Shown in pieces: positions 2,979 to 33,321 of a stretch of DNA of 41,445 nucleotides (position 1 is its first letter; every line of letters begins with the position of its first letter). Source of the stretch: a bacterium (lineage in GTDB: Bacteria; B130-G9); the NCBI GenBank assembly GCA_035527515.1, contig DATLAJ010000092.1:1-41445 (forward strand), read 5' to 3'. The notes under the pieces are model-generated. The model made no database searches and had not been told where the DNA came from. It worked only from the letters and a program-made list of their open reading frames with translations. The translations under genes were made by a program, and so were the position numbers.

Positions 2979-4187
2979 TTGAATTTCTTATTAGGGATTG
3001 TCGGAACCTGTCGGGGACCAGTCCGGACTTTCTTACTTGCTCTCGTTCTCGCTAGCATGGCCGGGGGGTTGGGCTTTGCGACCCCGTCGTCCGATCTGGC
3101 GCCAGGGCCTCCTGTGAATCCCCAGGTCCGGGACAGGCCCAACGATGCTGGCTCGGCCATCGAGATTACTTGGGATGCGTCCTTCGATGACACAGACGGC
3201 CGGGGAATCGTCAGCTCCTATTCCATTTTTTGCTCTACCGAGGCTATGAGTGGTTTCGTGTGCATCGGCACGGTCGGTTCAGGCCGAAAGAGCTACAAAT
3301 ACGTTGACTACAAGGTTGAGGACGGCCGGCGGTACTTCTATAAGCTCGTCGCGCAGACCGGCAACGGGGCCTTCTCAGGCGCAGACGTGTTGGGCCCCGT
3401 TATGTCGTCTGCGCAGTGGTTTTACTCGAACCGCCTGACCATGTTGGTTGCGCTGATCATTGTCTCGGCCTCGGTCCTGGTCTTCATATCGAGGGCTCGT
3501 TCGGGCAAGGAGCTCTATATTAGGCCGATAGCCGGGCTTCAGGCGGTTGACGAGGCGGTAGGCCGTGCGACCGAGATGGGCCGGCCAGTCCTATACATAC
3601 CCGGCATCATGGACATGGACGACGTCCAGACGATAGCCGGTGTGGCGATTCTTGGTCGGGTGGCCAGAAAGACAGCGGAATACGAGACCCCGCTTTCCGT
3701 CCCAGTGTCGCGCTCTGTGGTGATGTCAGCCGCACAGGAGACCGTAAAGGAGGCCTACTGGGACATGGGCAAACTAGAGGCCTACCATCCCGACATGGTC
3801 CGTTACATAACAGATGACCAGTTCGGCTTTGCAGCAGGCGTCGATGGCATCATGCTTCGCGAGAAGCCGGCCACCATCTTCTTTCTGGGCGCGTTCTACG
3901 CGGAGTCCTTGATACTTGCCGAGACAGGCCACTCCATTGGCGCGATACAGATAGCCGGGACGGCGATGACTTCGCAGCTGCCCTTCTTCGTAACGGCGTG
4001 TGATTACACCCTAATCGGTGAGGAGCTGTTTGCGGCCGGGGCCTATTTGACGGAGGACCCGCGGCTTATGGGCAGCCTGAAGGGCCAGGACGTCGTCAAG
4101 GGGCTTGCCATAGCGTTCATCATTGTGGGCTCGATTCTCGAGTTGTCGGGCATTCACTGGCTGACAAAACTTCTGGTAGTCAACTGA
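2979..4187 (+). CDS. Fn3 + DUF6754 membrane protein, cassette 1 component A
   Basis: A 402-residue protein with an N-terminal signal or anchor (about 15-38), a fibronectin type III-like domain outside the membrane (about 44-143, with an ITWDAS strand and a YFYKLVA strand), a transmembrane helix (about 152-172), a DUF6754-type domain (about 182-375) and a C-terminal helix. The domain opens with AVGRATEMGRPVLYIPGI and later has AESLILAETG and CDYTLIGEELFAA. No catalytic motif is recognisable. I prefer the TTG at 2979, which has GAGGG six bases upstream and lies downstream of the promoter. A TTG at 2925 would add 18 residues but falls at the predicted transcript start. The paralogue at 6341 conserves all segments; the DUF6754 domains are roughly half identical by eye. 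Function is unknown. Confidence 0.8.
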   Translation: MNFLLGIVGTCRGPVRTFLLALVLASMAGGLGFATPSSDLAPGPPVNPQVRDRPNDAGSAIEITWDASFDDTDGRGIVSSYSIFCSTEAMSGFVCIGTVGSGRKSYKYVDYKVEDGRRYFYKLVAQTGNGAFSGADVLGPVMSSAQWFYSNRLTMLVALIIVSASVLVFISRARSGKELYIRPIAGLQAVDEAVGRATEMGRPVLYIPGIMDMDDVQTIAGVAILGRVARKTAEYETPLSVPVSRSVVMSAAQETVKEAYWDMGKLEAYHPDMVRYITDDQFGFAAGVDGIMLREKPATIFFLGAFYAESLILAETGHSIGAIQIAGTAMTSQLPFFVTACDYTLIGEELFAAGAYLTEDPRLMGSLKGQDVVKGLAIAFIIVGSILELSGIHWLTKLLVVN

Positions 4188-4200
4188 GAGAGGCCGGTTC

Positions 4201-4842
4201 ATGAGGCGAGAGATACCACTGATCATCACGTTCATTTGCGGCGCTACGATGGTGGTTCAGTTCTTCATTCCGCATGACCCGTTCGACGGTATGAAGGCCT
4301 ATTTCCAGAATTCATATATGGTCATAGCTGGGTTTGCGATGATTCTGGGCATCTGCAACCTAACGATGCTGCACCTCAAGAAAGTCCGGGACAAGAGGCC
4401 CAAATGGGGTTACAGCATCGTGCTCATGGCCGGTCTGGTCGGCATTGCGGTCCCTGGGTTTTTCTTTGGAGGGATCGAGGAGAAGACTCTGTTTGATTTC
4501 ATTTTCCAGAACGCCCTTGTCCCTATGCAATCGACGATGTTCGCTTTATTGGCGTTTTTCGTCGCCTCGGCCTCGTATCGCGCGTTTCGTGCGAGAACAG
4601 TTGATGCCGCCCTTCTTCTTGTGGCCGGTTTTCTTGTGATGCTCGGTCGGGTGCCGCTCGGGGATAGCCTGACTTGGTTCATGCCTGAGGGTTTCAGGAT
4701 GTCGGACCTCGCCAACTGGATCATGGCGGTTCCGAATACGGCTGGCCAGCGGGCGATCATGATGGGTGCGGCCTTGGGCATTGTCGCTACTTCTTTGAGG
4801 GTGATTCTGGGAATAGAAAGGAGCTATCTCGGCGGTGGATAG
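4201..4842 (+). CDS. Multi-spanning membrane protein, cassette 1 component B
   Basis: A 213-residue hydrophobic protein with about six membrane helices and no family I recognise. A conserved block in the second half (MFALLAFFVASASYRAFRAR, then VMLGRVPLG, VPNTA and LGIERSYLG) is shared almost residue for residue with component B of cassette 2 (7615-8298). The N-termini (MRREIPLI and MRRQVPLL) also match. The RAFRAR stretch is a likely cytoplasmic basic loop. It begins 13 bases after component A with a GAGAGAGG ribosome site and overlaps component C by eight bases, which indicates translational coupling. It is presumably an integral subunit of a membrane complex with A, C and D; that role is inferred from co-conservation only. 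Confidence 0.75.
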   Translation: MRREIPLIITFICGATMVVQFFIPHDPFDGMKAYFQNSYMVIAGFAMILGICNLTMLHLKKVRDKRPKWGYSIVLMAGLVGIAVPGFFFGGIEEKTLFDFIFQNALVPMQSTMFALLAFFVASASYRAFRARTVDAALLLVAGFLVMLGRVPLGDSLTWFMPEGFRMSDLANWIMAVPNTAGQRAIMMGAALGIVATSLRVILGIERSYLGGG

Positions 4843-5701
4843 TGTGCCAACGAAGCCCCGGCGCTCTCTGGTCGATAGGCTCAAAGATATCGATCGCCGG
4901 GTGATCTTCGTCTTCATAGCGGTTGCGGTGATCATCCCTATGGTCTGGCCGATTGGACTGTCTTTGAAGGCCAGCCCGCCTTCGAGGGCGCTGTTCCGCG
5001 AGGTTGAAAGCCTGCCGCGAGGCTCGGTTGTGCTGATGGCGTTCGATTACGACCCGGCGACAGAGATCGAGCTCGGCCCGATGTGCCTGGCTTTTCTTAA
5101 GCAGTGTTTCCGCAAAGGTCTGAAAGTAGTTGGACTTGCGCTTTGGCCGCAAGGAGCCCAGCTTGCGCGGGCCTCGTTCTCGGAGGCCGCCAAGGGGTAC
5201 AACGTGAGATATGGCGTGGATTACGTGAATCTCGGGTTCAAGGCCGGTGGGATCGTCGTGATCGACTCTCTGGGCAAGGACTTTAGGGAGAGCTTCCCCG
5301 TCGATGTAGATGGCAGGCCTCTTTCCGATCTGCCGCTGATGAAGAAGGTCAAAAACTTCGCCGACATCGATTTCGTTATGGCCCTTTCTGCCGGGGACCC
5401 CGGGCTCCCGTTCTGGATAATGATTGCTCAGGGCCGCTTTGGGAGAAAAGTTGGTGGGGGCTGCACCGCTGTCTCAGCGCCCATGCTCTATCCGTATTTC
5501 CCGAACCAGCTTGTTGGCCTGTTGGGAGGCATGAAGGGCGCAGCCGAATACGAGCTCTTAGTTGGGGAGAAGGGCCCTGCAACTAGAGGTATGGATGCGC
5601 AGTCGATTGCGCACGCCGCGATCGTGTTCTTTATTATTATTGGTAACGTGTTCTTCTTTATCAGCAAGCGCAAACAGAAGCTTATGGGGGCCAGAGCTTG
5701 A
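4835..5701 (+). CDS. Bitopic protein with alpha/beta-like outer domain, cassette 1 component C
   Basis: A 288-residue protein with an N-terminal helix (about 22-42), a soluble region (about 50-250) and a C-terminal helix (about 258-278) followed by a basic tail. The soluble region starts with a predicted strand-helix-strand unit (VLMAFDYDPATE, a helix, then KVVGLALWPQG) that recalls Rossmann-like domains of GldG-type ABC-associated proteins, but this is only a resemblance. Segments shared with its paralogue at 8314 include FDYDPAT, the YGVDYVNLG strand, PYFPNQLVGLLGG, GAAEYE and GMDAQS. The start is GTG inside the end of component B; a second GTG at 4844 is possible. The conserved polar residues suggest a binding or catalytic site facing one side of the membrane. 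Function is unknown. Confidence 0.75.
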   Translation: MDSVPTKPRRSLVDRLKDIDRRVIFVFIAVAVIIPMVWPIGLSLKASPPSRALFREVESLPRGSVVLMAFDYDPATEIELGPMCLAFLKQCFRKGLKVVGLALWPQGAQLARASFSEAAKGYNVRYGVDYVNLGFKAGGIVVIDSLGKDFRESFPVDVDGRPLSDLPLMKKVKNFADIDFVMALSAGDPGLPFWIMIAQGRFGRKVGGGCTAVSAPMLYPYFPNQLVGLLGGMKGAAEYELLVGEKGPATRGMDAQSIAHAAIVFFIIIGNVFFFISKRKQKLMGARA

Positions 5702-6333
5702 CCCTCGAGACGTTTGACACGACGTTCGGCCTTTGGATAGGCGCTCTGCTTACGCTGTGCATTTTCAGCTTTTTATACAAGGACAACCCCTTCTACAGGT
5801 TCGCTGAGCACCTCTTCGTGGGTGTCTCGGCCGGCTATTGGCTCGTCTATAATTATTGGAATATCGTCAAGCCGAACCTGATCGATCCGCTGGCGGCAAG
5901 GCGGTGGCAATACCTGCTTCCGTTGGCGCTCGGCATATTCATGCTCACCAGGCTGTGTCCGAAGATCGGGTGGCTCTCTAGATGGCCGATTGCGTTCATG
6001 ATCGGCTCCGGGTCCGGCCTGATGGTCATCACCTATTTACAGTCGAACTTCCTGGAGCAGATAAAATCAACACTGGTTCCGCTTGACCCGAGTGGACAGC
6101 CCTGGTATGTTCTCGCCAACAATCTGATCCTTCTAGTAGGTGTTGTATCTGGACTTGTTTATTTCTTCTTCTCAAAGGCTCATACGGGTGTTACTGGTGG
6201 CGTTGCTCGGATCGGTATCGTGTTTCTCATGGTGTCCTTTGGCGCCTCGTTTGGATACACGGTCATGGCGCGTATTTCTCTGCTGATCGGAAGGTTGTAT
6301 TTCTTGCTACATAAGTGCGCAGGTTTCATATAA
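5698..6333 (+). CDS. Multi-spanning membrane protein, cassette 1 component D
   Basis: A 211-residue protein with about six membrane helices. The TTG start overlaps the stop of component C by four bases. Conserved features shared with the paralogue at 9182 are SFLYKDNPFYRFAEHLFVG near the N-terminus (a polar loop with conserved Lys, Asp, Asn, Glu and His) and FGASFGYTVMARISLLIGRL near the C-terminus. A polar and charged pattern so well conserved within membrane segments suggests a transport path or a contact surface with the other components. I do not recognise the family. It closes cassette 1; the next cassette begins within eight bases. Confidence 0.75.
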   Translation: MTLETFDTTFGLWIGALLTLCIFSFLYKDNPFYRFAEHLFVGVSAGYWLVYNYWNIVKPNLIDPLAARRWQYLLPLALGIFMLTRLCPKIGWLSRWPIAFMIGSGSGLMVITYLQSNFLEQIKSTLVPLDPSGQPWYVLANNLILLVGVVSGLVYFFFSKAHTGVTGGVARIGIVFLMVSFGASFGYTVMARISLLIGRLYFLLHKCAGFI

Positions 6334-6340
6334 GGTGCGG

Positions 6341-7561
6341 ATGTTGACAAGGGCTTCGGTGTCATTTGCCGGCAGGCGATTGCTGCACCTCTCGATGTGT
6401 GTGCTGGCCGGGTCACTGGTCTTATGTTGCCAAGCGCTCTGTCAGTCGCCCCCGTCGGACACACCTCCCTTCCCAGCTACGAATCTTGTCGCCAAGGACA
6501 CGCCGGATGATGACGGTGGTTCGATCACCCTCTCCTGGACACTTTCGGCCGACGATAGCGGTGGCAAAAACGACGTCATAGGATACGAGGTCCGGCGCTC
6601 AAAGGACCCCAATGGCCCGTTTGAGACGGTGAAGTCGGTGTCAAAAGGCACTTCCGGGGTCACGGACGAAAGCAAAGTCGAGAACGACGCAGGTTATTAC
6701 TATCAGGTTGTAACGAAGGACGTTGGGAGCGAGACTCCCTCCACTGTCTTTGGGCCGATTCAGGCGGGAGTTCAGTGGTTCAACCTCGGGCGATTGAACA
6801 CTCTGATCGTCACGCTCATTTATATAACACTGCTGCTCTATTTCATCGTTCAGGCCAAGAAAGGCGCGAAGCTCTTCATTCGTAGGATTGCCGGCCTCGA
6901 TGCACTCGAGGAGGCGGTTGGCCGAGCGACGGAGATGGGCAAGCCTATTCTCTACGTGCCGGGCATTAGCACCATCAGTGACGTCGCGACGATAGCGTCG
7001 CTCAACATCCTGTCGGGAGTGGCCAGGACTGTCGCGGAATACGACACGAGAATAATCGTGCCGAACTACGACCCGATTGTTATGACTGTGGCTCAGGAGG
7101 TTGTTAGGGAGGGATTCCTGGCGGCAGGTAAGCCGGAAGCCTACAACGAGCAGGACGTGTTCTACGTCACCTCGAGCCAGTTTCCCTTTGTCGCTGCGGT
7201 TGACGGGATCATGGTCCGTGAGAGGCCCGCAACGAATCTCTTTATTGGGATGTTCTTTGCCGAGTCGCTAATTCTTGCCGAGACAGGCGCATCGACCGGA
7301 GCGATCCAGATAGCCGGCACCGACGCAGTCGCGCAGCTCCCGTTCTTCATAGCCGCGTGCGATTACACCCTCATCGGCGAGGAGCTCTACGCGGCGAGCG
7401 CATATCTCAGCCGAGCTCCACTTCTTCTGGGCAGTTTGAAGGGTCAGGACTGGATGAAGATGTTTCTCATCGGCTGTATATTGATAGGCCTAATTACCTT
7501 GAATGCCGGATATGATGGGTTCAAGAGTTTGTTTGATATTCCTTTAACGATCTTTAGATAA
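6341..7561 (+). CDS. Fn3 + DUF6754 membrane protein, cassette 2 component A
   Basis: A 406-residue paralogue of the gene at 2979 with the same order: hydrophobic N-terminal signal or anchor (about 13-34), Fn3-like domain (about 43-143), membrane helix (about 153-173), DUF6754 domain (about 180-375, opening AVGRATEMGKPILYVPGI) and C-terminal helix. AESLILAETG and CDYTLIGEELYAA are retained. The ATG at 6341 has AAGG five bases upstream; a GTG at 6335 would add two residues. The outer Fn3 domain is much less similar to its paralogue than the DUF6754 domain, which fits a duplicated complex whose exposed part has diverged to contact a different partner. That interpretation is inference. Confidence 0.8.
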   Translation: MLTRASVSFAGRRLLHLSMCVLAGSLVLCCQALCQSPPSDTPPFPATNLVAKDTPDDDGGSITLSWTLSADDSGGKNDVIGYEVRRSKDPNGPFETVKSVSKGTSGVTDESKVENDAGYYYQVVTKDVGSETPSTVFGPIQAGVQWFNLGRLNTLIVTLIYITLLLYFIVQAKKGAKLFIRRIAGLDALEEAVGRATEMGKPILYVPGISTISDVATIASLNILSGVARTVAEYDTRIIVPNYDPIVMTVAQEVVREGFLAAGKPEAYNEQDVFYVTSSQFPFVAAVDGIMVRERPATNLFIGMFFAESLILAETGASTGAIQIAGTDAVAQLPFFIAACDYTLIGEELYAASAYLSRAPLLLGSLKGQDWMKMFLIGCILIGLITLNAGYDGFKSLFDIPLTIFR

Positions 7562-7614
7562 GGTGCCCAGCTCGTTATGGTGTCAGTCGGGATGAATACC
7601 ACGAGAGTCAACAG

Positions 7615-8298
7615 ATGAGAAGGCAGGTCCCGCTCTTAATCTGCTTTGTCGCCGGAATCGTGATGCTGGCTCAGAGCTTTATTCCGCCGCTGACCTGGTT
7701 CTATACTAATGCCCTTGCCTGGGCGAGAATCATTGCGTGCATTGCGCTGTTTATTGGGCTGATAAGCCTTGTTCGGCTGCACACAACGAAGATCAAGCGA
7801 AAGTCCGCCAATTGGCAATTCAGCATGATAACCCTGTGTGCTTTGGGCTACATGATGCTTGCGGGCCTTCTGACTCGCTACGGTTTTTTCATCTGGCTGC
7901 ACGGCAAATGTGTCTCAGGTTCGACAGGCGACGGGTTTGTTACCGTGCTCGAGAACGCTTTCAACTTCCAGGACATCTTCCTGAACGTTCAGATACCGAT
8001 TCAGGCCACCATGTTCTCGCTGCTCGCATTCTACATCGCCTCGGCAGCGTTTCGCGCGTTCAGGGCCAGAACCCTTGAGGCGACGCTTCTTCTGATTGCG
8101 GCCACAATCGTGATGCTGGGCCGGGTGCCCATAGGCCAGATGATTCCGGGGATATCGGAGATCACGACGTGGATTCTCGACGTGCCGAACACGGCCGCAA
8201 AGCGCGGGATCATGATCGGTGTTGGCTTGGGCATGACCTCAACGGCCCTGAAGATCATGCTGGGGATTGAGCGCACTTATTTGGGCATGAAAGACTGA
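7615..8298 (+). CDS. Multi-spanning membrane protein, cassette 2 component B
   Basis: A 227-residue paralogue of the gene at 4201, with about six membrane helices. It shares the N-terminal MRRQVPLL, the FRAFRAR loop, VMLGRVPIG, VPNTAAKR and the C-terminal LGIERTYLG. It carries a longer loop between the middle helices (about residues 97-122, with a Cys and several Gly residues) that is absent from copy 1. It starts with ATG 53 bases after component A; this is the largest gap inside either cassette. Role unknown, expected to be the same as that of copy 1. Confidence 0.75.
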   Translation: MRRQVPLLICFVAGIVMLAQSFIPPLTWFYTNALAWARIIACIALFIGLISLVRLHTTKIKRKSANWQFSMITLCALGYMMLAGLLTRYGFFIWLHGKCVSGSTGDGFVTVLENAFNFQDIFLNVQIPIQATMFSLLAFYIASAAFRAFRARTLEATLLLIAATIVMLGRVPIGQMIPGISEITTWILDVPNTAAKRGIMIGVGLGMTSTALKIMLGIERTYLGMKD

Positions 8299-8313
8299 GA
8301 GAAGGTTGATTTC

Positions 8314-9180
8314 ATGAGCTTCTGGCGTTTCTTACTCAGGATGGATAGACGAATAGTCTTCATTCTGGTTGCGCTGGCTGTGATCGCGCCGCTAATAGCG
8401 CCGCTCAATCTTCCGATCAGCGTTAGTAAGCCAGTAAGGAATCTTCATCGGGCAGTAGACCAGGTCCCGGCCGGGGGCCGACCGATTCTCGTCTCTGTTG
8501 ATTATGATCCATCCACCGTGCCTGAGCTTCGACCTATGACACTTGCGGTTCTGAGGCATTGCTTGAAAAGAGGCGTGCCGGTGATCGTGTTGAATCTTTA
8601 CCCAACGGGATCAGGCCTCGCCAGAGACGCAGTCGAGACCGTTGGGAAGGAGTTCCCTGGCTCGTCATACGGCAAGGATTACGTGTACATGGGCTATAAG
8701 CCGGGAGTAACTTTGGTGATGATGGGAATCGGAGAGGACTTTCACGACACCTTTCCAACAGACGGCTATGGGAGGCAGAGCTCTGACCTGGAAATGCTCA
8801 ATGGTGTCAAGAACTATGATGACATCGCTTTGATGATCGATTTCACTGGCAGCGCCGCTTATGAGGCCTGGATCATGTTTGCGCACCAGAAATACGGATG
8901 TGATGTAGGCGCTGGAGTCACCGCGGTCATGGCAAGCGACGCCTATCCGTATCTGAATTCGGGGCAGTTAGTGGGGCTGCTGGGTGGCCTCAGTGGGGCA
9001 GCTGAATACGAGCAGCTCATCGATTGGCCCGGGAATGCTACCATTGGCATGGACGCCCAATCGGTCGTTCATATCCTGATCATCATCCTGATCGCTCTCG
9101 GTAATATAGCCTATTTCGCAACGAGGCGCCAAGGACAAACCGCTCAGGCCGCCGGTCGAGAACGGGCGGGGGGTTCGTAG
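8314..9180 (+). CDS. Bitopic protein with alpha/beta-like outer domain, cassette 2 component C
   Basis: A 288-residue paralogue of the gene at 4835 and of the same length. It has an N-terminal helix (about 13-33), a soluble domain and a C-terminal helix (about 254-273). Conserved residues include VDYDPST, ELRPMTLAVL, the YGKDYVYMG strand, the FPTDGYGR loop, a SDL pair, VKNYDDI, PYLNSGQLVGLLGG, GAAEYE and GMDAQS. Loss of similarity outside these blocks, with strong retention inside them, argues that the blocks form an active or binding site. The ATG has GAGAAGG upstream. It is followed one base later by component D. Confidence 0.75.
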   Translation: MSFWRFLLRMDRRIVFILVALAVIAPLIAPLNLPISVSKPVRNLHRAVDQVPAGGRPILVSVDYDPSTVPELRPMTLAVLRHCLKRGVPVIVLNLYPTGSGLARDAVETVGKEFPGSSYGKDYVYMGYKPGVTLVMMGIGEDFHDTFPTDGYGRQSSDLEMLNGVKNYDDIALMIDFTGSAAYEAWIMFAHQKYGCDVGAGVTAVMASDAYPYLNSGQLVGLLGGLSGAAEYEQLIDWPGNATIGMDAQSVVHILIIILIALGNIAYFATRRQGQTAQAAGRERAGGS

Positions 9181-9181
9181 T

Positions 9182-9838
9182 ATGACTGGCATGGAACTCT
9201 TCTGGGCCTGGGTTGCGGCATATCTTACGCTCAGCATCTACTCGTTCCTATATAAGGACAACGTTTTCTATAAGATCGCTGAACACCTCGTCGTCGGCGT
9301 ATCTGTCGGCTATATCTTCACAATCAACTGGTTTCAGGGCTTACATCCCTACCTCTTCGAGCCCCTCAGCAAATCTGGTGAAGAACCGATCAACCTCCTT
9401 CGGCTGATCCCCTTTGCCCTGGGTCTTCTGTTTCTTCTCAGGATCAGCCGGAAATACAACTGGCTGAGTCGATTCACGATCGCACTTGTAATGGGAATAG
9501 GCTGTGGCACCGCAATTCCTTACACTATTGAGGCCAGGCTCATTGAGCAGACCAAGGCCTCAATGATAAACCTCTTTGACCAGCCGAGCCTTTGGGCTGG
9601 CGTCTGTAGCTTCATTATTCTCGCGGGAACGATCGCGACGCTCGTTTTCTTTTTCTTCTCAAAGGAGCATAAGGGCGTTCTCGGTGGGACCGCAAGAGTC
9701 GGCGTCGTTTTCATTATGGTCGGCTTCGGCGCCTCGTTTGGCTACACAGTCATGGCCCGTGTCTCGCTTCTGATTGGCCGGCTCAACTTCCTCATCAACG
9801 ACTGGGGCAAAGGCACCTACCACTTCATTTTCGGGTAG
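9182..9838 (+). CDS. Multi-spanning membrane protein, cassette 2 component D
   Basis: A 218-residue paralogue of the gene at 5698, with about six membrane helices. It keeps SFLYKDNVFYKIAEHLVVG, a central EQTK loop, FFFSKEHKGVLGGTARVG and FGASFGYTVMARVSLLIGRL. It ends the eight-gene run. The following 215 bases contain a promoter (9965-9993), so the downstream genes are probably a separate transcription unit. Function unknown; by analogy with copy 1 it forms the second polytopic subunit of the putative complex. Confidence 0.75.
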   Translation: MTGMELFWAWVAAYLTLSIYSFLYKDNVFYKIAEHLVVGVSVGYIFTINWFQGLHPYLFEPLSKSGEEPINLLRLIPFALGLLFLLRISRKYNWLSRFTIALVMGIGCGTAIPYTIEARLIEQTKASMINLFDQPSLWAGVCSFIILAGTIATLVFFFFSKEHKGVLGGTARVGVVFIMVGFGASFGYTVMARVSLLIGRLNFLINDWGKGTYHFIFG

Positions 9839-10789: not shown

Positions 10790-12385
10790 ATGGAAGTCCC
10801 ACTTTTCATAAAGGTTGCTCAGTTTGCGAGTGCGCTGAGCATATTCTCTGCGATAATCGTCTGCCTCGTCAATTTCGTGATGACGGGGAGGTCTGGGCGC
10901 GTTTGGCTGTTGCTGACGGGCGCCCTGGCGGCGGAGTTCTTGGTCGTTTTCAGGGACATCGTGGACATCTGGGTTGGGTTTGGTCCCTTTGCCGCCGTCT
11001 TTGCCAGATTTGATTACATAAGCTTGGCCTTCACGTTCTTGTTCGCGGTTGCTGCGCACCAGTTCATTTCCTACAAGCAAGACGAGCTTCTGAGGGCGTT
11101 CGGGGCTTCTCAGACGGCCAAGCGGATTTTAGAGTCGTCGCTTGGGGCAATGGGCGACAGGTTTGATGTTATTGGGCCCGATTTTCGCGTCATCTATTCC
11201 AACATTGCCTCGAGCGATCTGTCTCATCCCAAAGACGATCCTGGCGCGAAGAGCGCCGAAGGTCCGAGCGTCAGCGCACAGCTTGCCCTTGCCACCTTTA
11301 AGAGCGGGCTGCTCTCTCGAGGCGAGGAAGTTTCTGAGGACGGGGACGGGGCAAAGCGAGTTCTAGATATCGTCGTGTCCCCGGTTATTTCAGGAGACGG
11401 CCAAGTATTGGCCTGTGTTCGAGTGGCGCGCGACATAACCGAGATAAAGCAAATGCAGAGGGCCATAAAGGACGTCAATGTGAAGCTAGAGGAGAACGTT
11501 CGCGAAAGGACGGTTCAGCTCGAGAATGCGCTTGAGCAGCTAGGTCGCACGCATGAACATCTCTTGCAGTCAGAGAAGCTGGCTGCGCTGGGCAAGATAG
11601 CGGCTGGTCTGACGCACAACATCGCCAATCCGCTCTCGGTGCTTGGGCCGAAGCTCAAGCTTTTTGGGGACTATTTCTGGCATGTAGATAATATTTTCCG
11701 CGGATATCGAGCGCTTCATGATTTGGATGATCCGGAGGTCATCAAACAACGACTGGGGCTTATCGCGCAGGAGTCTCGAGAGGGTAGGGGCATTGACTAT
11801 TATCTGCGCAAGTTGAATAGATTCGTCGTGCCATGCGTCAAGGAAGTGCACAAGATCGAGAAGATCGTTCAGGACCTCGTTGACTACTCGAGGATGCAGA
11901 AGCCAGAGGTCGAGCCGGTGCAGATCAATGACCAGTTGAGGCTAGTAACTTCGCTTTTGGATTATGAGTTTAGGGGCTCAAAAATACGCCTTGAAACACG
12001 TTATTACGAGGGATTGCCAGAGGTTGAGTGTTACGCCGCGGAGGTCAACCAGGTGATAACCAATCTTCTCATCAATAGTATCGAGGCGGTTTCGACGAAG
12101 CGGAGGCAGGACCCAGATTTCGAGCCTGTGATCAAGATCACGACTCAGGGGGAGGATTCTGTTGTCAAGATAAGCATTGAGGATAACGGAGTCGGCGTTG
12201 AAACGGATGATTCGACGAAGGTTTTCGACCCGTTCTTCACGACTAAGCCGGTTGGCGGGGGAGTGGGCCTTGGGCTTTCAGTTTCGGCGGGAATAATCGA
12301 GAAGCATGGAGGTAGCATCGAGCTGAGTTCAAAGCCTGGCGAGTACTCCAGGTTCGTGATCACGCTCCCAATAGAGTTGAGTTAG
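10790..12385 (+). CDS. Membrane sensor histidine kinase
   Basis: A 531-residue kinase. Residues about 7-30, 38-56 and 68-95 are membrane helices forming an N-terminal sensor. A PAS-like region (about 110-220, ending VRVARDITEIK) and a coiled linker (about 225-265) follow. The phosphoacceptor His is predicted at residue 276, in LTHNIANPLS, where most relatives have H-E-x-N-N-P. The ATP-binding domain shows an N box (NQVITNLLINSIEA), G1 (DNGVGV), F box (FDPFFTTK) and G2 (GVGLGLS), so it should be active. No response regulator lies in the window, so the kinase is an orphan here. The small genes upstream and the secreted giants downstream are on the same strand, but a strong promoter at 12504 separates it from the latter. 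Confidence 0.9.
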   Translation: MEVPLFIKVAQFASALSIFSAIIVCLVNFVMTGRSGRVWLLLTGALAAEFLVVFRDIVDIWVGFGPFAAVFARFDYISLAFTFLFAVAAHQFISYKQDELLRAFGASQTAKRILESSLGAMGDRFDVIGPDFRVIYSNIASSDLSHPKDDPGAKSAEGPSVSAQLALATFKSGLLSRGEEVSEDGDGAKRVLDIVVSPVISGDGQVLACVRVARDITEIKQMQRAIKDVNVKLEENVRERTVQLENALEQLGRTHEHLLQSEKLAALGKIAAGLTHNIANPLSVLGPKLKLFGDYFWHVDNIFRGYRALHDLDDPEVIKQRLGLIAQESREGRGIDYYLRKLNRFVVPCVKEVHKIEKIVQDLVDYSRMQKPEVEPVQINDQLRLVTSLLDYEFRGSKIRLETRYYEGLPEVECYAAEVNQVITNLLINSIEAVSTKRRQDPDFEPVIKITTQGEDSVVKISIEDNGVGVETDDSTKVFDPFFTTKPVGGGVGLGLSVSAGIIEKHGGSIELSSKPGEYSRFVITLPIELS

Positions 12386-12702: not shown

Positions 12703-15700
12703 ATGCTAAAGCGGGGATGGTTCTTACGATCCGCCGTCGGGCTTTGCGCTCTCGTAATGTTGTTCGGTGCAAGTGGTGCCTCGGCGTCGTCAAGGGGCGA
12801 TCAGATAGCACCCGAGACCTACATAATGGGTAGCGGTAACGAGGTTTATGAGCCCTATTTCGATGATGACTTTAACGGACGTTATGATCCTGGCGAGCCG
12901 TTCGTTGACATCAACAGAAATGGGCTTTGGGACGTGAACGTCTTCGTCCCGGAGGGCGGTGTAGTAACTTCAAAGCACGTGATGTTCTGTTACTCTGCGG
13001 TTGACAACTCCATCACGGACGGGCTCGAGAAGGACAACAACGTCGGGAAGATGGGATTCTCGTATTTCAACCCGTTCACCAGCACTTGGTCGTCGTTTGC
13101 CAATCAGTTGTATTGTGTTCTCGAGGTTCCCGAGTCCGTGCTCGTGCAGCCGGTCCCGAACTATGACGTTTCTTACACGTTCAAGGTGCGGGCGAAGGAC
13201 CCTTCAGGCAACATCGATCCTGACCCGGCCACCAGAACGTTTTACGTGGGCGTTGGATACTTGGGCACGGTGACGAGCGTTGGTGCTGAGACCATAGTTG
13301 ACAAGAGTGCTGCTTGGTCGGATCAGGCATTGGTTGGCCTGTATGTAAACCCTAATATCGAGCAGACTCAGACGTTTCTCATCGTCGGGAATACGCTTAA
13401 CGTCATATATGTTGAAGAAGGCGCTCAACTCCAGTCGATAGCAAACGCCGGGGATAGGTTCTGGGTTATTTACCCGATGCTGACCCCACCGAGGCTGGGC
13501 GTGAAGAATATCGCCACTCGTGATTCCCTTTCGAGGGTAGTGGTAGGGACCGGTAACGAGGTCGAACTCAGCTGGTCAGAGGTCGCCGCAGGTTTCGAGG
13601 CGCAGGTTTCTTACGATGTTTATCGAAATGGCGTTTGTATAGCGGCCAACTATTCCTCCACGACGTTTACCGATCCGGATAACGCGGAGCCTGGCACGCC
13701 AAACCCGTTGAACGGGCAGACATACAAGTATCAGGTTGAGGCGAACGTTCAGACCTCGATCATGACTTACAAGACGCTTCGTTCAAACGAGGTGGATGTC
13801 TCGCCGATCGATCTCACAGTAACGTCGAACGATATTCTGACGGTCTCGCCTGGGAACGTAACGATGGGTCAGGATACAAACGAGGTCGTTTTTGTTCTGG
13901 AGAACACGACGAAGACCAAGCCGGTGGACTGGTCCATTTATGCGGACGTGTATTATTGGGACCCCAGGGGGGTGCGGATGTTCGGCCAATATCTCTGGGC
14001 TGGCCGCTTCACCAATGCGAAGATAGTCGCCGAGGAGGGTGGTTTGGCCAACGCAAAGGCGCAGGTGGGGCTGATTGACACGACTGCGAGTTGGGAGCCG
14101 AACGAGCTCGTTGGCAAACAGATCACGATAGCGGAGCGCTTCCATGATTTGAATGGTAACGGTCGTTATGAGTGGCATGATGACAACGGCGATGGCGTTT
14201 GGGACTACGGTGAGGGCGAGAAGGATGCCAGCGGAGAAGGCCAATTCGGTCGCATTGAGTATGACGATTTCGTGATAACGTCCAACGATCGCACGAGCCT
14301 GACGGTTGACCGGGACCCGACTAGGATTGGCCGCAATTCGGAGGGCCAGGTGGCCAATAGCTCTGGCGCAGGTTCCTATTACTACATTCGTGATTGGTTC
14401 CCGATGTCTGCGATCTCGTTCTCGCGTGTGACGGGGCAGGTGCTGATGGAGCCGCAGACGTTTAAGATGGAGCTCGACAGGGGCCGGCTTCCTGCGGGCT
14501 GGTTCATCGTTTATCTTTACGTGGAGCAGAACGGTCGAGACCCCTATCCTGGCAACAGCAACCCACTTGACCCGATTGTGTGTGTGGTGACGATCCAAAA
14601 CGGGAATCCGCTCTCGATCTCGCGCGTCATAGGCGTGCCATACGAGGCCCCGGGATGGGGCAGCGATCCTGCGGCCAGCACGGACGGCGTAGCGAAGGAT
14701 ACCGTTACGCTCGCTTTCAATCTGACTGACAACGCGACGGACTTCAGGGGTGGTCTCTTCCCGAGGCACAAGTCGTTTGCCTATTGGGCTGCTTCGGGTA
14801 CTCTGGCGGACCAGGTCGGCGAGATGTTTGTGGGATGTTTTCTTAATCCGGACGTTTCCGATCTTGCTTACTGGGCGGGCGGGGCTATGGTCGAGGACAG
14901 GCCTCCGCAGGCGTATCGCATCGAGTCCTATACGGTCCAAGGTGGTTTATTAGCTGTGCCTCAATCGACTCTGGTGCAGCTCGAGCTTCCGGCCAGCAGC
15001 AACGGGCATATCGGCGTTGACAGGAGGGACTATCCGCCTCCGGAGGACCTTGGCCTGCTGGGGGGTACTGCGCCGATTGACTACACGGTTTACAGGCCTT
15101 GGGGCACCGGTTCGGACCAGGCGCCGAGCTCTGATCAGATGGGTCTGGACCGTTGCTGGACGTATCAGGGAAACGATCCCGGTGATCCCAACGGTTACAC
15201 GGCGGGGCTGCCGAGAACAAGGGGTCAGTGGACCGCCGGGGACGAGGTTATGGTCAGGCTTAACAACAGCGCGATTCGTCCCGGGGTCTATGGTATCGAT
15301 CCAGATGTTGTTGCGACTGCCAAGGGCGACTACAACGATGTCCTGGACTATTGGTGGCGCCCGCTTCTGGTGCACGAAACCACCCCGTTTGAGAACGGTG
15401 TGCTCACCGGTAGCGTCCGTGATTACTACATTGAGCCAGCAGGGGACGTTGCCTGGAAGGGTTGTAGATATCAGATCGTTACTGGAAGCGCCGCCGACGA
15501 AGACGCGGGGATTCTGAGAGAGAGTTGTCACATCACAGACGATTCGGCGTTCGTTGGCTCTGCCATAGCGCTCGACCCGGTCGGCCAGATGGGTGCTCTG
15601 AACGCAGGAGAGCATTACTTCATCACTCAGGCCTATAACCCGGAGCCGTTTTATTCCTCTACTTGGGTTCGGAGCTGGAAAGATTTCAAGGCTGGCCTGA

Positions 15701-18700
15701 CGCCTGATCAACCGCCTCCGCCGTCGGCGCCGCATTTTGTTGGCGGGTCGATAACTTGTGAGTGCCAGCCGCCTCCAGGAGCGTTCGACGCCGGCACTCC
15801 ATATAAGGACGTCAACCACAACTGCACATACGATGCTAATCCGACCCTGACGTTCCTTTCCGCGGACATTACCGAGGGCGGAACAGCCTCATTCAACAGT
15901 TTCGTTATCTACGACAGCGACGGCGACGACTCCGTTACAGGCAAGGCGAGGCGCTGGAGCGTTTCGCCTTCCAGGCACACCATACTTGAGCCGAGGATTC
16001 CGGGCGACACAACCGGCCGTGCGGAGTGCAATGACCCTGACGTTTGGGCGAGCGGCATGGCAATGGGGAGCTACCCGCTTCTCGTGAATGGCGATGGGGA
16101 GCCTTACTGGGACTCCAACGGCAACGGCATCTACGACGGAGCAGACACGCTCTACCTTGAGCCGCCTATGACCAACCGGGACCCCAGGAGTTGGAAGTCG
16201 AACTATTTGCCTGATGACCTCGAATCTCAGGACCTTTACTGTGTCATTGAGCCCGGCGAGGTCGTTACAGGTTATCTGATCTTGACCAACAAGAGCGTAA
16301 GAGACGCACTCAGCGTTTCTGCCCTCATATCAGAGTATGACCCGTATGTAACGCTTATCGGAAACAACCTGACGATGTTCGACAACGTCCCGAGCGGCAG
16401 GACGCTGATCGCGGTTCCGCCCGGGTCCGGTCTCACCGCGCAGGAGGCGGAGCGATACGCTTTCAAGTTCAGGGTCTCCGAGCAGGTCCCCTGCTACACG
16501 AATGGTTACGACGTAACGTTCTACACCAAGGTGTTCGACAGTTGGGGTGGCGATTCCTATGATGATTCGTTTAGGGTGAAGCTCTTCAGGATCGATCAGC
16601 CGACTGTTATGCCTCCTGTGATTGATGACGATAGGTATGGCTACAGCGGAACAAGCATTTACAGTAACGGCGATGGCGTCATGCAGGCTGGGGAGCGAAT
16701 TGAGCTCTTAATAAGGCTGCGTAACGAGAGCTGCTTGCCGATCGGCAACAACGGCCCGACGGGCCAGCTGATAGCGCAGATGTCGGTCGACAACCCCTTG
16801 GTTACGCTCGCCGGCGGCGGCCAGCTTATTTCGGGCGCTGCGAGGAACTATTTGAGCATACTGCCCGGGGACGAGGGGACGCCGTTCGATGCTGAACCAG
16901 AGTTCGAGGTCCAGATTGCCAATAACTATGATGGCTCGCCAATCCCGTTCGAGCTGACAATGACGGGCGCGGTTACCTACGGGTCGGCTCCTCCTCCGGC
17001 GGCTGAGTACGTATCGCCTTGTCTCTATACGTGGCGGACATCGTTCTGCGAGAACCCTAAGATCTATGGGGTCGTTCATTACAACAAGCTCTCAGGAGAT
17101 TCTACCGCGCTTCTGACGAGCACACTGATTGACGAAAACGCGCTCTTTGTGCCGGGCAGCCTTTCTGGATTGAAGCTTAACCCGAACACCAACCAGTCCA
17201 AGACATTTGAGATAATCAGCAACGCGGTAACGAGCATCACCGTGGATGGCAATCTTCGGACAGTGGCGAAGGTCGGCGACCCGTATGAGGTGGTCAGAGA
17301 TGCGTCTAACGTAATGCTTAACCCTGGCGAGACGGTTGAGGTCGTCATGACTGCGGCTCCGGGGCAGATCGCAAGCTTCAACTTCGAGAAGGTTAATCGC
17401 AATAGGATTTCTGGCTCCGTCAGTGCCGTCATGGGGGACACGATCATAGACCTGACAGCGGACTTCGAGATCGGCTCGCTCGCGGGTCTGAAGCTCCTTA
17501 TCAACGGCACCGATGTTTACCATATCATAGGTAACTCCACGAACGTCATTGTTCTGGACCGCAACGTGGCGGGTCAGATCAACATGGGCGACGGCTACCA
17601 AACGTATGGTTTTGCGAGCGTGCAGAGATTCTTCGAGAGCAATATCCGGATGTTCGACGATGGTATGCACAAGGACGGCGCGGCGGGCGACGGTGTTTAT
17701 GTCGGAACATATACTGTCAAAGAGGGGGATGACATTCTTGCGGACGTTGTTGGTTATCTTGAGGACACAAGCAGTGGTAACGTAGGGCACGTTTATGCCT
17801 CTAAGCCTTTGATGATTGACATCTCTCTGCCTGAAGCGCCTCAGGGCGTTAGGGCTACGATCACGACGGTTCAGCTAGGTAATGCGATAAGGCTTGATTG
17901 GGACATAAACCGTGAGCGTGACTTTCAGTATTGCACAGATGCGGGCTATGCGATCTTCAGAACAGATGATCCGAGCCAGATTCCGAGAGAGCCGGTTGAG
18001 ACTCTCAATTGGGCCACCGATACGTCCGCCTCGTTGATCTTCAATATTGGTCCTCCGGAGGCATTCACGGATGCGAACGGCAATGGGACGTGGGACCTAG
18101 GCGAGGTGTTCAAGGACTGGAACGGCAACGGCATCTACGATCCTGGGCCGTATTGGGTGGATAGCACAGCTGTGCAGCCTGGCGTAACCTATTACTACTT
18201 CATAAAGGCCATCGATGCCTATGGCAACAGCAGCGATTACTCGAAAGTAGTTGGCATAACGCTTTACTCTGCGATGAACCTGGGCATTGACAAGATGCCG
18301 GACAGATGGGAGGAGCAGTATGGCCTTAAGTCGACGGTTGACGACACCTACAACGACGACCTCGATTATGATAATGATGGTCTGACCAACTATGAGGAGT
18401 TCCTGCTTCACACCAATCCAACTGACCCAGACACTGACAAGGACGGCGAATGCGACGGCTCTGAATACGATAGAACTGACGATCCGGTCTCGGCGATCAA
18501 CCCCAGGGACGAGTCTCTAGGATTTGACGTGAGGCCGGGCGGCTATGCCGGTATTTCCTCCTACGTAACGCCAGAGTCGGACACCCAGTTCTGGTTTGTT
18601 GATGAACACGCAGGCTGGGTCGTTCATCAATATCAAGGCAAGGTCCTCTACGGAGGCAACAGCAGCAGCTTTGAGATAATCGACAACACCCAAACGGCGC

Positions 18701-21700
18701 TGTTAGTAAGCGGTGATCCCGATCGAACAAAGCTCGCTACACCTGACTATTACTGGATAGACGGTGCGAAACATGTCGACCCAGATACTGGGATCACTGC
18801 CAAGATATCCTCGGTTTATGGGATTGATCCGCGGACGATCTCAATGAGCATAAACGGCAGCGAGGTTCCCTGGGAAGACCTTGTCATAGCGCCGTGTTAC
18901 ACGAAAACCTACGGTGATTTTGTTGCTGACGAGCTCTCGGAGTGTTGGGTGGTTGACACCTATAATGACAGGATTCTGGAGCTGGGCGGGGAGACGATGA
19001 ATGAGGTCTCCAGGATAGCGGGGCGCGGTTTCTACAGGCCGGAAGGGCTTGCGATCGATCCCACAACCAAGACGTTGTGGGTGGCCGATACGGGCAACAA
19101 CGAGGTTGTCAAGCTCAAGATGCTCTCGTCGCTTTCGGGCACCTGGACCAGCGTTCAGGCGGATCTGACTGGCTCGACGACACTAACCGACAACACGGCC
19201 AACTGGACGCCCGGAGCGCTCGTTGGCTATTCGGTGAACCCCAGCACCGCTCAGCCATTCCCCCAGTGGTATGAGATAGCGAGTAATACATCCACATCAC
19301 TGACGGTCAGTAGCCTCGTAACTGCCACGCCAGGCGACAGCTACGTGATCAACTACTACGAGGCCCAGGAGGAGTGCCGGATCGTTGGATTTGACGGCCC
19401 GACTAGCCTGGCTGTTGATTGGGTCAGAGGTAACTGTTGGGTAACTGACACCGGCAATGATCGTGTTTTGCGGCTGGCGAAAGATATCGAGAGTTATGGG
19501 ACGGTCTATGACCTCGCGGTCTCCGTTGGCTACCATACTGCGATTGGCGGTGCTGATGGCGTCGAGAGTCCTTTTTCTGCGCCTCGTCACATAGCAGTAA
19601 ACAGCTATCCGTTTCCGCTGGCAGAGGAAGGTGCGTGCTGGGTTGCTGACACAGGGAACGGTGATGTTGTGAAACTATCTGCCGGCGGTACCGCGATACT
19701 CAAGAGAATACACGGTTTTGACCGCCCGTCGTGCATTGCGGTTGATTACTATCAAGGGGCGATCTGGGTTGCCGACAGTGGGAATGACCGCGTGGTCAAG
19801 CTTCTGAGCGATGTCCCTGACGGCTACGACGTGAACGTCAGGAACTATCCCGAGATGGATATCAAGGTGAATCTGGACCCCGACAGCTATCCGACTGGCG
19901 TTGCGGTGAACCACGTCACCGGCGAGGCATGGGCGGCGCTTTCAGGGACCGGTCAGGTGGTCAAGATTGCGCCTGACGGCACGGTGGAGGCTACGGTCAA
20001 TGGCTTCGTCTCGCCTGCCAAGGTGAGCGTAGCGTCGTTAAGAGACCTTGGGGGCCACGTGGGGCAGTGCTGGGTCGCTGATTCGGACGCCGATATGGTT
20101 TACAAGATAGACCCGGAGGTCCCCGACGGCTACAACCTCTTCACAGACGCCGGCTACATCCAGCGGACGGCGACAGGCTCCGTGCTGATGCCCTCGTATG
20201 TCCTGGTCAATTCGGGCGGTGTGCAGGCTGGCTACGGCGTTCAGTACCAGCCGGACCAGCAGTTTGGATATGGGCAGGTAGTTGACGTCGAGATCCAGGC
20301 AACAGACCTGTTCTTGTCAAAGAGGGACGGTCTGGGCAACCACGGCTCGGCCTCGTTCGTGTTCACCACCGTGGAGCGGGATACTTCGGCGCCGTTCCTG
20401 GCGAATCAGGTCCCGCCCAAGAACTCGCATAACGGCAGCGTTTACGGGCCAGTCGAGTTTGATGTGCTCGATACCGGCACTGGCGTTGACGGCGACACGG
20501 TGCAGATGTACGTCAACGGTGGGCTGATATTCAGTGGCGTAGGCGGGGATGTGTCTGGTGTGTCAACGGTCCCGAAGTATGACGAGGATGAGAAGGCTTC
20601 GGGCTACGCGATTGCCTATCAGCCATCTCCACGATTTGGGTATTACGAGAAAGTAACGGTTAAGGTTATTGCAGCTGACTTTGCTTTCCCAGAGCCCAAT
20701 CGCAGCATCCTTGAGTACTCGTTCTATACCGAGATTGACGCCGATCCGCCCATGGTCTATGAGGGTTCTGAGCGGCCGAGCGTGGGCCAAGAGGACGTTG
20801 ACCCCAACGTCGAGTCGGTGAGCGTCATCGTTTTCGATACTAAGAGTGGGGTGGACCCGGACTCGATTGAAGTAACTATCGATGGGAAGCCGGTCGCCTG
20901 GGATGCTCTGACGCTTGAGCCGTGGATGCATCCTGATGGATACGTTGGCTACCGCATAATCGCCCCGATCGGGCAGACGCTTACATACGATCAGGACCTT
21001 ACCGTGTGCGTACGAGCGGCCGACCTTGGCGGCGACGAGGTTACGGGTCCGAATTGGATGGAGACATATTGTTGGAGTTTCAAGACCAACCCCGACGCCA
21101 ACAAACCTTATTTCACGAATCTGCACCCCGATAGGGGTGAGACGGGCGTCAGGCCTAACACTGATGTCTCTTTCGACGTCCTTGACGATGAGGAGGGCGT
21201 TAGCGCAAGCTCCATCTCAATGCGCATCAAGCCGCTCGATCAATGGATGGACGTCGATCAGCAGATGATGACAATTATGCCGATCAGTCAGGGCTTCTCG
21301 GTGATGTATCAGCCGACAGGGGACTTCTCGCCCAACACAATAGTGGATGTCGAGCTTGGCGCAAGCGACCTTGCTGCGCCGGCCAATACGAAGACCGAAA
21401 GCTATAGGTTCACGCTTGAGGACACTGTCCCGCCGACCTACAGCACGGTCAACTTCGCGCCGAGGCCTGGCTCGCAAGAAGTCGCGATTGACACAGTCGT
21501 CTCGCTCGTGGTGAAGGATGAGCCGAACCCCGAGGCCGGCATCGAGTTCAACTCAGGCATCGATGAGACTTCCGTTGTGATGTCGTTCAATAATCAGCCT
21601 CAGGCCAATGTACAGGTTACCTGGGTGATGGCGCCGTATGTGGCGATCATCAAATGCCAGGCGAGCTTTGAGCACTGCGAGAGCGTCACGGTCAGAGCTG

Positions 21701-22953: not shown

Positions 22954-22998
22954 TGACGGCGGGGTTTGTTTGAAGATTCCGATGGAGGGATTGTAACT

Positions 22999-25900
22999 AT
23001 GGGGAATCCAGGGCGGAGGCTTGTACCTCTTGGTCTGCTGCTGATAAGTTTCGTCTTGTCGTTCGGCTGGGCGTTCGCCGCCTCAACTGATGTTGCGTGG
23101 CGGATGCTACAGCATGATTCTCAAAGGTCTGGCCTCGTGGATGGTGTCGGGCCTGTGATTCCTGATGTTTTGTTTGAGTTTGAGACAGCGTATTGGGTCC
23201 GATCATCCTGTGTCGTGGCGCCGGATGGCTCAGTTCTTGTCGGGAGCTATCTGGGCATGTTCTACTGTCTCGAACCAGACCTCTGGACCACACCGAGATG
23301 GTGGGTGGATTCGGGCAGCGACATCGAGGGAACGCCCTGCCTCGCTCCAGAAGGCATAGTTTATGTGCCAACCATGGACGGGCGCCTTATCTGCATTGAT
23401 GCCAATACATCAAGCGGGAGCCTTGTGGACATCAAATGGATATACCAGGGACCCGCCTCTCTCAAGACCTCGCCGTGTCTGATGGCGGATGGGGCCATCG
23501 TCGCGACGTTCTCAGATGGCACGCTAGTTGTCCTCGAGCGAGACGGTAACGTTCGGTGGACCTTCTCATCCGAGGGTGGGTTCGAGGCGTCACCGGCGAT
23601 TGCTCACGACGGGACAGTCATAGTCGCTGACGCCGAGGGGCGCGTAACGGCGCTGACCAGAGAGGGGTCTGTTCGCTGGACGGACGATACTCTCAGCGCG
23701 GTTCTATCGTCTCCCACAACCTATTTTGATGATGTCTATGTCGTCAGCTATGACGGCGTCGTTCACGCCCTTTCGCTGGACGATGGCTCGCCGATTTGGA
23801 CGTTCAAGACTGGGTGTCTGAACATCGGTTCGTCGCCGGCGGTCGATTCAGACGGCGCGCTGTATTTCGGGACACAAGAGGGGATCCTGTTCGCGTTGTG
23901 GCACTATGGGGCAGAGAAATGGCGCTTTGCTGCGGACGGCGAGGTCCAGAGCTCGCCCGCCGTGGATGCTGACGGCAAGATATACTTTGGCTGCTCGGAC
24001 TATTGTCTTTATTGCCTTAACAAGGACGGAGACTTGCTCTGGACTGAGCGGACCAGGGGCAAGATCACGTCGTCGCCAGCTATCGGCCCGGCGGAGCCTT
24101 TCGTTGACGAGAACGACAACGGGGAGTGTGACGGCGATGAGACGTTCGAGGACATCAACTTCAATGGGCAGTGGGACGGCAACTGTGTTTATGTTGGCTC
24201 CTGGGACAGAACTGTCATCGTCGTGGGACAGAAGGCCGATGCAGTTCCGCAGCTTTCAGAGAGCTCGGTTTCTCCCGAGGAGGGCAATGTATCTACTGTT
24301 TTCACGTATTCTGTTGGCTACTTCTCAGACCCTGGGAGCGGCCCCGAGACGACGTGGGTTGTGATAGATGGCAGTCCCCATGATATGACGCTTTACAGGG
24401 AGAACTACTACGGACCTGGCATCGACGAATACCGTTTTGAGACGCAGCTTCCGGTCGGCAACCATAATTTCTACTTCGCGTTCTGCGATGCGGACGGCGA
24501 CAGCGTGAGGTTGCCGACTGACGGCGCAATCGACGGGCCATTTGTCAAGCCGGACAACAGACCTCCCGCTCTGCTTGCAGGTTTCGTCTCGCCTGCTTCG
24601 GCCACTCTCGGCTCAACGTTCACATTTACAGTGGATGTGGCAGACCCAGATACGGACGTGATAACGGCCGTCTATCTAGTGCTGAACGGTCCTGGGATGA
24701 GTGAGCCGGCGGTTTATCTCATGCAGGACTTCGTTGCCTCGACCACGAATGACGGCTACTACACGTTCAGACAGGGCCTCGTTCTCGAACATGTGGGCGA
24801 ATACGAGTATCTTTTCGGGGCAATCGATGCCAGGGACGGGATCGGCATTCTGCCGTCCGAAGGCTGGTATCATGGCCCCACGGTTACGCCCTGCACAAGT
24901 CCATGGCCGATGTATCGGCAGAATCGCAATCACACTGGTCTATCGGTGCTCGAGGGACCCTATATCTACACACTGCGGTGGGCTGGCAGGGCCGGAGGCG
25001 GAATCGTGTCCTCTCCGTGCATCGGCGCCACCGGGAACATATACGTTGGCTCGCTCGATGGCTCGCTCTATGCTTATTCGACAGACGGAGTGCCGCTTTG
25101 GAGTTATGCCACTGGGGACATGATCGTCTCATCGCCTGCGGTTGGCTATGAGGATGTGGTCTATTTTGGCTCTGATGACGGCTACTTGTATGCTGTCCAG
25201 GACGGGACGCTATTGTGGCGAACGCAGATGGGCGGAAACGTCCGCTCCTCGCCGGTAATGGGCACGGGCGGCGCTATTTACGTCGGCTGCAACGACGGCC
25301 GTCTTTACGCGCTCGACAAGGACACCGGGACGGTGCAGTGGCGGTATAGTATAGGGGCCTGGATCAACTCCTCGCCCGCAGTCTGGAGGCTGCCCGATAG
25401 GGACATCATCTACATCACTGCGATGGATGGTAATCTTTACGCAGTTCACAATCTCGACACCGGGGGCGTCTATTGCCTCGAGATGTTCCACACCGGCCAC
25501 TGGGTAACGTCGTCTCCATGCATTGGGCCCGACGGGACCATCTACTTCGGCTCCAACGACGGCAACATCTACGCGGTCGATCCTGAGGGTAACCTTGAGT
25601 GGTCCTACCCGACGAATAGCTGGGTGCGTTCATCACCCGCTATCGACAAGGACGGAAACGTTTACGTGGGTTCACTCGACCACCATCTATACTGCCTCGA
25701 TTCTGAAGGCGAGCTCAACTGGATGGTCGATCTCGGCGACCAGATCGTCGGCTCCTGTGCGCTCGACGCGAGAGGTTACGTCTATGTTGGCACCAACTAC
25801 ACCACTCCCGATGGCGGCAAGGAGTTCTGCCTGGACAGGGAAGGCAACATCGAATGGGTATTCCAGACAAGCGAGGCTGTCAATTCATCCGCTGCGATTG

Positions 25901-32399: not shown

Positions 32400-32400
32400 C

Positions 32401-33045: not shown

Positions 33046-33054
33046 AGTTGTAAT

Positions 33055-33273
33055 CTAGTCCATCTCTGTAAACAACTCGGTCACATGGACCTCCAGAGCG
33101 CGAGCGATCGCCAATATGTTCAGCAAGCTGACATTGCGTTCTCCTCGTTCTATTCCTCCGACGTATGTCCGATGCAGCCCAGCTCTGTGAGCAAGCTCTT
33201 CTTGGGATATACCACGAGTCGCTCTTAACTTCCGGACACGTTTGCCTAATGCTTGAAGCGGATCTTTCATCAT
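33055..33273 (-). CDS. XRE-family controller (C) protein of the restriction system
   Basis: A 72-residue helix-turn-helix protein with the size and sequence style of restriction-modification controller proteins: GKRVRKLRATRGISQEELA, then AGLHRTYVGGIERGERN as the recognition region (about 22-46), ending VTELF. C proteins bind C-boxes in their own promoter, first activating and later repressing transcription of the C and R genes so that methylation comes first. A matching C-box lies just upstream (33291-33321). The gene starts at the ATG at 33273 (a second ATG follows directly) and leads into the nuclease gene. Confidence 0.85.
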   Translation of the reverse strand: MMKDPLQALGKRVRKLRATRGISQEELAHRAGLHRTYVGGIERGERNVSLLNILAIARALEVHVTELFTEMD

Positions 33274-33290
33274 TGCATAATGCTAGATAC

Positions 33291-33321
33291 AGTGACCACT
33301 ATGAGTCCACAGCCTATAAGT
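33291..33321 (-). promoter_or_regulatory. C-box operator of the C-R operon
   Basis: Reading the minus strand, ACTTATAGGC and ACTCATAGTG flank a TGTGG spacer, and GTCACT follows. This is very close to known C-boxes, where GACTTATAGTC-like and ATTATAGTC-like half-sites surround a central GTG (for example that of Esp1396I). It ends 17 bases before the controller ATG, as expected for near-leaderless C transcripts. It also lies under the region upstream of the divergent vsr gene, so the same protein might influence vsr. Confidence 0.7.

Follow-up and report, generated by a model that had tools for sequence, protein, structure and literature searches.

Within the window, which is the whole 41,445-nucleotide stretch of DNA analyzed here, positions 2979-9838 hold eight open reading frames (ORFs), all on the forward strand, that constitute two paralogous sets in identical order, A-B-C-D and A'-B'-C'-D', as follows:

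2979-4187, forward strand: A of cassette 1, TTG start with AGGGAAAGG just upstream
4201-4842, forward strand: B of cassette 1
4835-5701, forward strand: C of cassette 1, GTG start
5698-6333, forward strand: D of cassette 1, TTG start
6335-7561, forward strand: A' of cassette 2, GTG start
7615-8298, forward strand: B' of cassette 2
8314-9180, forward strand: C' of cassette 2
9182-9838, forward strand: D' of cassette 2

Identity between paralogues is 46% for A/A', 44% for B/B', 43% for C/C', and 48% for D/D', which agrees well with the first-pass annotation of eight contiguous genes as two paralogous sets. The blocks described there as strictly shared, namely GRATEMG, RAFRAR, GMDAQS, and FGASFGYTVMAR, are likewise each present in both members of their pair. 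The overlapping starts that it reported are a feature of the first set, in which B and C overlap by 8 nt and C and D by 4 nt, but not of the second, the genes of which are closely packed and overlap-free. A and A' are full-length members of DUF6754 (Pfam PF20539), with E-values around 1e-120 (2e-121 and 2e-119, respectively) and scores of 404 and 398 bits against a gathering cut-off of 27. No above-threshold Pfam match was obtained for B, C, or D, and NCBIfam profiles matched none of the eight ORFs. The PF20539 entry covers a single domain to which no function is assigned and includes neither the companion genes nor the seven-gene system described below, while a literature search with most subscription journals outside its coverage returned no paper mentioning either DUF6754 or PF20539. 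A PMT_2 glycosyltransferase is encoded upstream of the cassettes at positions 250-2244; as it lies on the opposite strand and is not a conserved neighbour, it was rejected as a part of the system.

Protein A begins with a signal peptide, followed by a periplasmic Fn3 domain (residues 46-143), a transmembrane (TM) helix (150-174), the cytosolic alpha/beta DUF6754 domain (approximately 185-358), and a further TM helix (361-390), and A' is built in the same way. The AlphaFold2 model of A (mean pLDDT 89) displays the same order of Fn3, TM, alpha/beta domain, and TM. C consists of a TM helix (21-37), a periplasmic alpha/beta domain (48-243), and a long C-terminal TM helix (248-287), again as in its AlphaFold2 model (pLDDT 95). 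B and D are membrane proteins with approximately six TM helices each. Charge bias places the alpha/beta domain of A in the cytosol and that of C in the periplasm, with B oriented N-in and D probably N-out. Conservation within the cassette peaks in the cytosolic domain of A, where 32% of columns are invariant, compared with 6% in the Fn3 domain of A and 9% in the periplasmic domain of C. In the models, the alpha/beta domains of A and C each contain six strands in the same order and with similar spacing, that of C carrying an insert of approximately 25 residues after the third strand. Moreover, A and C share one C-terminal TM motif, Q-x3-K/H ... IIxG. These features are suggestive of a single fold in opposite orientation, and as the support consists of strand order and spacing in models together with one TM motif, the common fold is left as a conjecture. 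Profile-profile comparison by sequence gave a Z of 1.5 for A with C (hhalign probability 6%) and of 0.6 for B with D, neither better than block-shuffled controls. Against solved structures, the best 50 matches of A were nearly all to the Fn3 domain and none to the alpha/beta domain, and C retrieved only generic Rossmann folds (TMq <=0.37). Foldseek searches of the PDB and of viral models gave no informative match.

To trace the history of the two sets, 108 complete cassettes drawn from 70 loci were placed in one tree. In it, cassette 2 of the window belongs to a clade with last copies from other phyla, and cassette 1 falls among cassettes that are single or come first in their loci. All four trees built from single genes recover this last-copy clade, with 25 of its 26 members, support >=0.99, and no mixing, and pairwise distances among the A, B, C, and D genes correlate at 0.76-0.89. 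Since four independent gene trees share one paralogue clade, the duplication is judged from these phylogenies to be ancient and en bloc, pre-dating the divergence of these phyla unless transfer always involved the whole block; the trees fit vertical descent and block transfer alike. The complete co-duplication asserted in the first-pass annotation is thereby upheld, and the phylogeny that it proposed for dating the event has supplied this answer.

Residues that clearly distinguish the last-copy clade from the remaining cassettes occur only in A (seven) and B (five). Those in A include Q217A, R245D, S246P, and A329D. The A of cassette 1 is of the Q217/R245/S246/A329 type, and A', in which the equivalent positions read A/D/P/D, represents the second type of paralogue, so the window carries one A of each type. 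At least one Q-R/K-S-A copy is kept in every sampled genome, and the single-copy genomes examined hold only that type. Judging by position, the four type-specific residues would be located near strand ends of the cytosolic domain of A, among many invariant residues. Because the module types differ at these strand-end positions, they probably handle different substrates or partners.

Relatives of A were detected in at least 564 stretches in a scan of one genome per species, 80 of which were surveyed as loci. The latter all derive from metagenome-assembled genomes (MAGs), mainly ones labelled Zixiibacteriota, WOR-3/Stahlbacteria, Coatesbacteria, Fermentibacteria/Aegiribacteria, Eisenbacteria, Latescibacterota, and Celaenobacter, together with some labelled Gemmatimonadota and a few Acidobacteriota. 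It can be observed with iterated HMMs that the order A-B-C-D is nearly universal in the surveyed loci, in one, two, or three tandem copies, although the second set is inverted in one locus (L022) and lies a few kb distant in three (L014, L046, and L064). The same order in approximately 70 loci rules out chance. DUF6754 genes number 1-7 per genome across 29 whole genomes, two were found in each of the four genomes examined from the window's phylum, and the system was found in every sampled genome of two small groups (4/4 and 5/5). Extra copies are nearly all complete A-B-C-D sets, as read in 40 regions from nine genomes, most of which held an extra copy. The exceptions among more than 150 A genes read are one clear lone A (L162, 7125-8246, with no B, C, or D beside it and five other copies elsewhere in its genome) and two A-A-B-C-D arrangements (the WOR-3 loci L138 and L169, with two adjacent A genes ahead of a single B-C-D). 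In addition, the set in L149 abuts a masked run, and those in L137, L139, and L171 look incomplete in single-contig MAGs, perhaps as a result of frameshifts. The profile searches suggested in the earlier annotation therefore reveal a gene order kept across phyla, and single components, the frequent occurrence of which it had named as counter-evidence, are rare, which supports the obligate association of the four genes that it had deduced.

Three further genes, mostly single-copy, co-occur with the cassettes: c6 (approximately 125 aa), a long GlmL/MutL-like ASKHA ATPase, here termed MutL*, and X381. Clustering of neighbours shows that in approximately 30 loci c6-MutL*-X381, whole or in part, either immediately precedes ABCD or is divergent from it. 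In the window's genome the three constitute an operon on contig C155 (locus L095), unlinked to the window:

C155, 7097-7474, reverse strand: c6
C155, 5209-7026, reverse strand: MutL*
C155, 4061-5188, reverse strand: X381

Two flagellin-like genes and FliS-like genes lie directly beside this operon (L095, 1-3953). A second long MutL occurs in the same assembly on a contig of 3.1 kb (C77, L093), possibly a contaminating one. X381 has a barrel-sandwich end with a weak, below-cut-off Biotin_lipoyl match and a C-terminus that is KOW-like by eye. Profiles of X381 and MutL* retrieved nothing from PDB sequences at E < 0.05. X381 is present in 24 of 24 cassette genomes and in 5 of 5 from a further group, with one full-length copy per genome against 1-7 DUF6754 genes. 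c6 occurs in 32 of 32 cassette genomes and in 0 of 23 cassette-less genomes, the latter including three with a GlmL-type MutL. MutL (PF13941) was found in all four genomes of the window's phylum. Among 199 Acidobacteriota, in 9 of which MutL at large is above cut-off, A, X381, and D are confined to the identical three genomes; for two sets of three drawn at random, the chance of coincidence is approximately 1 in 1.29 million, although the three genomes may be related. It is thus strongly supported that A-B-C-D, c6, MutL*, and X381 constitute one coherent seven-gene system, and the original four-gene reading was incomplete because c6, the long MutL, and X381 also belong to it. In terms of co-occurrence, one core, nearly always single in a genome, accompanies 1-7 paralogous membrane modules. 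It is highly improbable that these are only ancient housekeeping genes that have stayed neighbours because rearrangement is slow, with no joint machine. Some gene order is kept in these phyla and the cassettes adjoin unrelated genes too, but the phyletic co-occurrence persists for unlinked genes, those of the window's genome included, the sporadic presence in Acidobacteriota takes the form of the complete set, and the four gene trees are congruent.

MutL* shares the whole MutL domain (PF13941, E 1.6e-124 for a cassette-linked copy) and the ASKHA motifs (ATDCGSTTTK, GVDIGGATTD, and GSGG) with the GlmL/MutL proteins (PF13941, TIGR01319, NF040745). It differs from them in scores that fall below the NCBIfam cut-offs of the GlmL and Or-4 equivalog or family models (228 against 475 bits for the GlmL model, 212 against 600, and 165 against 204), in a C-terminal extension that the GlmL-type MutLs from three genomes without cassettes lack, and in the membrane cassette and X381 that replace mutase subunits. 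Those three GlmL-type copies score 114-150 bits, compared with 984 for a copy from a cassette genome. A glutamate mutase or aminomutase operon setting was not found for MutL*, as no mutase subunit was recognized among the recurrent neighbours, which are instead c6, X381, and ABCD. GlmL/MutL relatives have been described as chaperones that reactivate glutamate mutase (PMC4682846), and for this reason a membrane enzyme complex was retained as a possible, albeit doubtful, explanation. The two alpha/beta domains would then be catalytic or cofactor-binding, and MutL* would act as a reactivation or maturation chaperone, as GlmL does for glutamate mutase. Besides the kinship of MutL* with GlmL, the invariant polar residues of A at the C-terminal strand ends, the edge at which the active site of Rossmann-like folds usually lies, are consistent with such a complex. 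However, neither a cofactor motif, an Fe-S motif, nor a mutase subunit was seen, no enzyme was matched by Pfam, NCBIfam, or fold, the C-terminal extension sets MutL* apart from GlmL, and the domain of C is on the opposite side of the membrane from that of A.

Gene neighbourhoods provide an indication of where the system may operate. In Zixibacteria, the order MutL - PsbP-like - X381 - TolQ - TolR - TonB-like - TolB - Pal - TPR protein is divergent from ABCD, the names being assigned from sequence by eye; a MotA/ExbB match was also obtained. WOR-3 loci display ABCD - DUF4388 - four small proteins - ExbB - ExbD - ExbD - TonB, and those of Fermentibacteria c10 - c6 - MutL - X381 - ABCD - TonB-dependent-receptor-like protein - ExbB - ExbD - TonB. 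The adjoining ExbB/ExbD/TonB or TolQ/R/B-Pal genes in three lineages point to the cell envelope, not to a substrate. Neighbours of extra cassettes vary by lineage and, named by eye, comprise an ABC sugar transporter, polysaccharide export, SPFH, and transglutaminase-like proteins; considered as a substrate clue, they were set aside, being diverse and lineage-specific. Downstream of the cassettes in the window lies a PAS histidine kinase (10790-12385). Two large proteins are encoded at 12703-26763, a secreted one of 3416 aa, with repeats of Fn3-like and propeller type, and after it a PQQ/beta-propeller protein of 1265 aa. The kinase and the giant Fn3 protein were rejected as parts of the system, since neither is a conserved neighbour of the cassettes. 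Further along, positions 30975-33835 encode an HTH-cytosine-5 methyltransferase, a 214-aa protein with no Pfam match, and a Vsr-like endonuclease, probably a restriction-modification set. An F-type ATP synthase operon includes a 320-aa c subunit of four fused hairpins (36693-37655, forward strand), in which the Glu of the ion-binding helix occurs only in the first hairpin (GQAITETSG; the others read GQAAAST, GQAVTQT, and GQAVAQS).

Two other explanations were considered. In a signalling or sensing complex, which is regarded as unlikely, the periplasmic Fn3 domain and C would sense a ligand and the cytosolic domain of A would signal via MutL*. The presence of large soluble domains in both the cytosol and the periplasm, the histidine kinase in the window, and the DUF4388 and other small proteins after the cassette in WOR-3 would fit, yet the kinase is not conserved as a neighbour, approximately 16 TM helices per cassette are heavy for a sensor, and the most conserved surface is cytosolic. 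An improbable alternative is a cytoskeletal or scaffold machine, in which MutL*, with its actin-like fold, would assemble at the membrane and position complexes for envelope synthesis, secretion, or motility, in the manner of PilM, FtsA, and MreB. Membership of MutL* in the ASKHA fold family, its single copy serving several membrane modules, the Tol-Pal and ExbB/D neighbours, and the flagellin genes beside the core operon in the window's genome are compatible with a scaffold. Nevertheless, polymerization of GlmL-type proteins is not known to us, and the invariant strand-end residues of A better fit a ligand or catalysis. Transport or envelope work is considered more likely than a structural role.

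Our preferred, though tentative, reading is that the shared ATP-driven core energizes several membrane modules, leading to movement or hand-over of a substrate. MutL* would hydrolyze ATP in the cytosol and, via X381 and c6, would act on A at its alpha/beta domain in the cytosol, which is nearly invariant; a conformational change would then pass through the helices of B and D and reach, in the periplasm, the alpha/beta domain of C and the Fn3 domain of A, so that a substrate would be moved or handed over in the cell envelope. Contacts among A, X381, MutL*, and c6 are predicted on this basis, and the strongest conservation lying in the cytosolic domain of A is the expectation if that domain meets the shared core. 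Against the envelope machine, the relatives of MutL* are described as reactivation chaperones, the alpha/beta domains of A and C resemble solved structures only as generic Rossmann folds, and the genes around extra cassettes point to no substrate. The proposed logic is similar to that of ECF (group II) transporters, in which one ATP-driven core is shared by several separately encoded membrane modules, but by analogy only, as no ABC ATPase or ECF profile matched A-D, X381, or MutL* and no S-component match exists. TonB-ExbB-ExbD, also envelope machinery, likewise combines one energizer with many partners. It and Tol-Pal are frequent neighbours with no sequence relation to this system, and they are driven by the proton gradient, in contrast to the ASKHA ATPase here. 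We know of no transporter driven by a GlmL-family ASKHA ATPase.

More speculatively, the system may define a novel class of envelope machine, powered by ATP and distributed widely among FCB-type candidate phyla. The GlmL-like ASKHA ATPase, X381, and c6 would energize several paralogous modules in which the membrane path formed by B and D lies between two alpha/beta domains of the same fold, that of A inside and that of C outside. This arrangement may go back to an inverted duplication in the distant past, and the module types would each handle their own substrate. The seven-gene system itself had not been recognized before, and its function is what we infer. Six of the seven components belong to no functional family, the exception being the GlmL-like ATPase, and the system is found in hundreds of species, mostly of uncultured phyla. 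The tight phyletic coupling of the seven genes, unlinked ones included, makes it possible to treat several hypothetical proteins as a single, testable system. Its parts now have names, its topology and a candidate pocket have been outlined, and its paralogues fall into two defined types. Should the system prove to be an ATP-driven envelope machine, the known kinds of primary membrane energizers would be widened.
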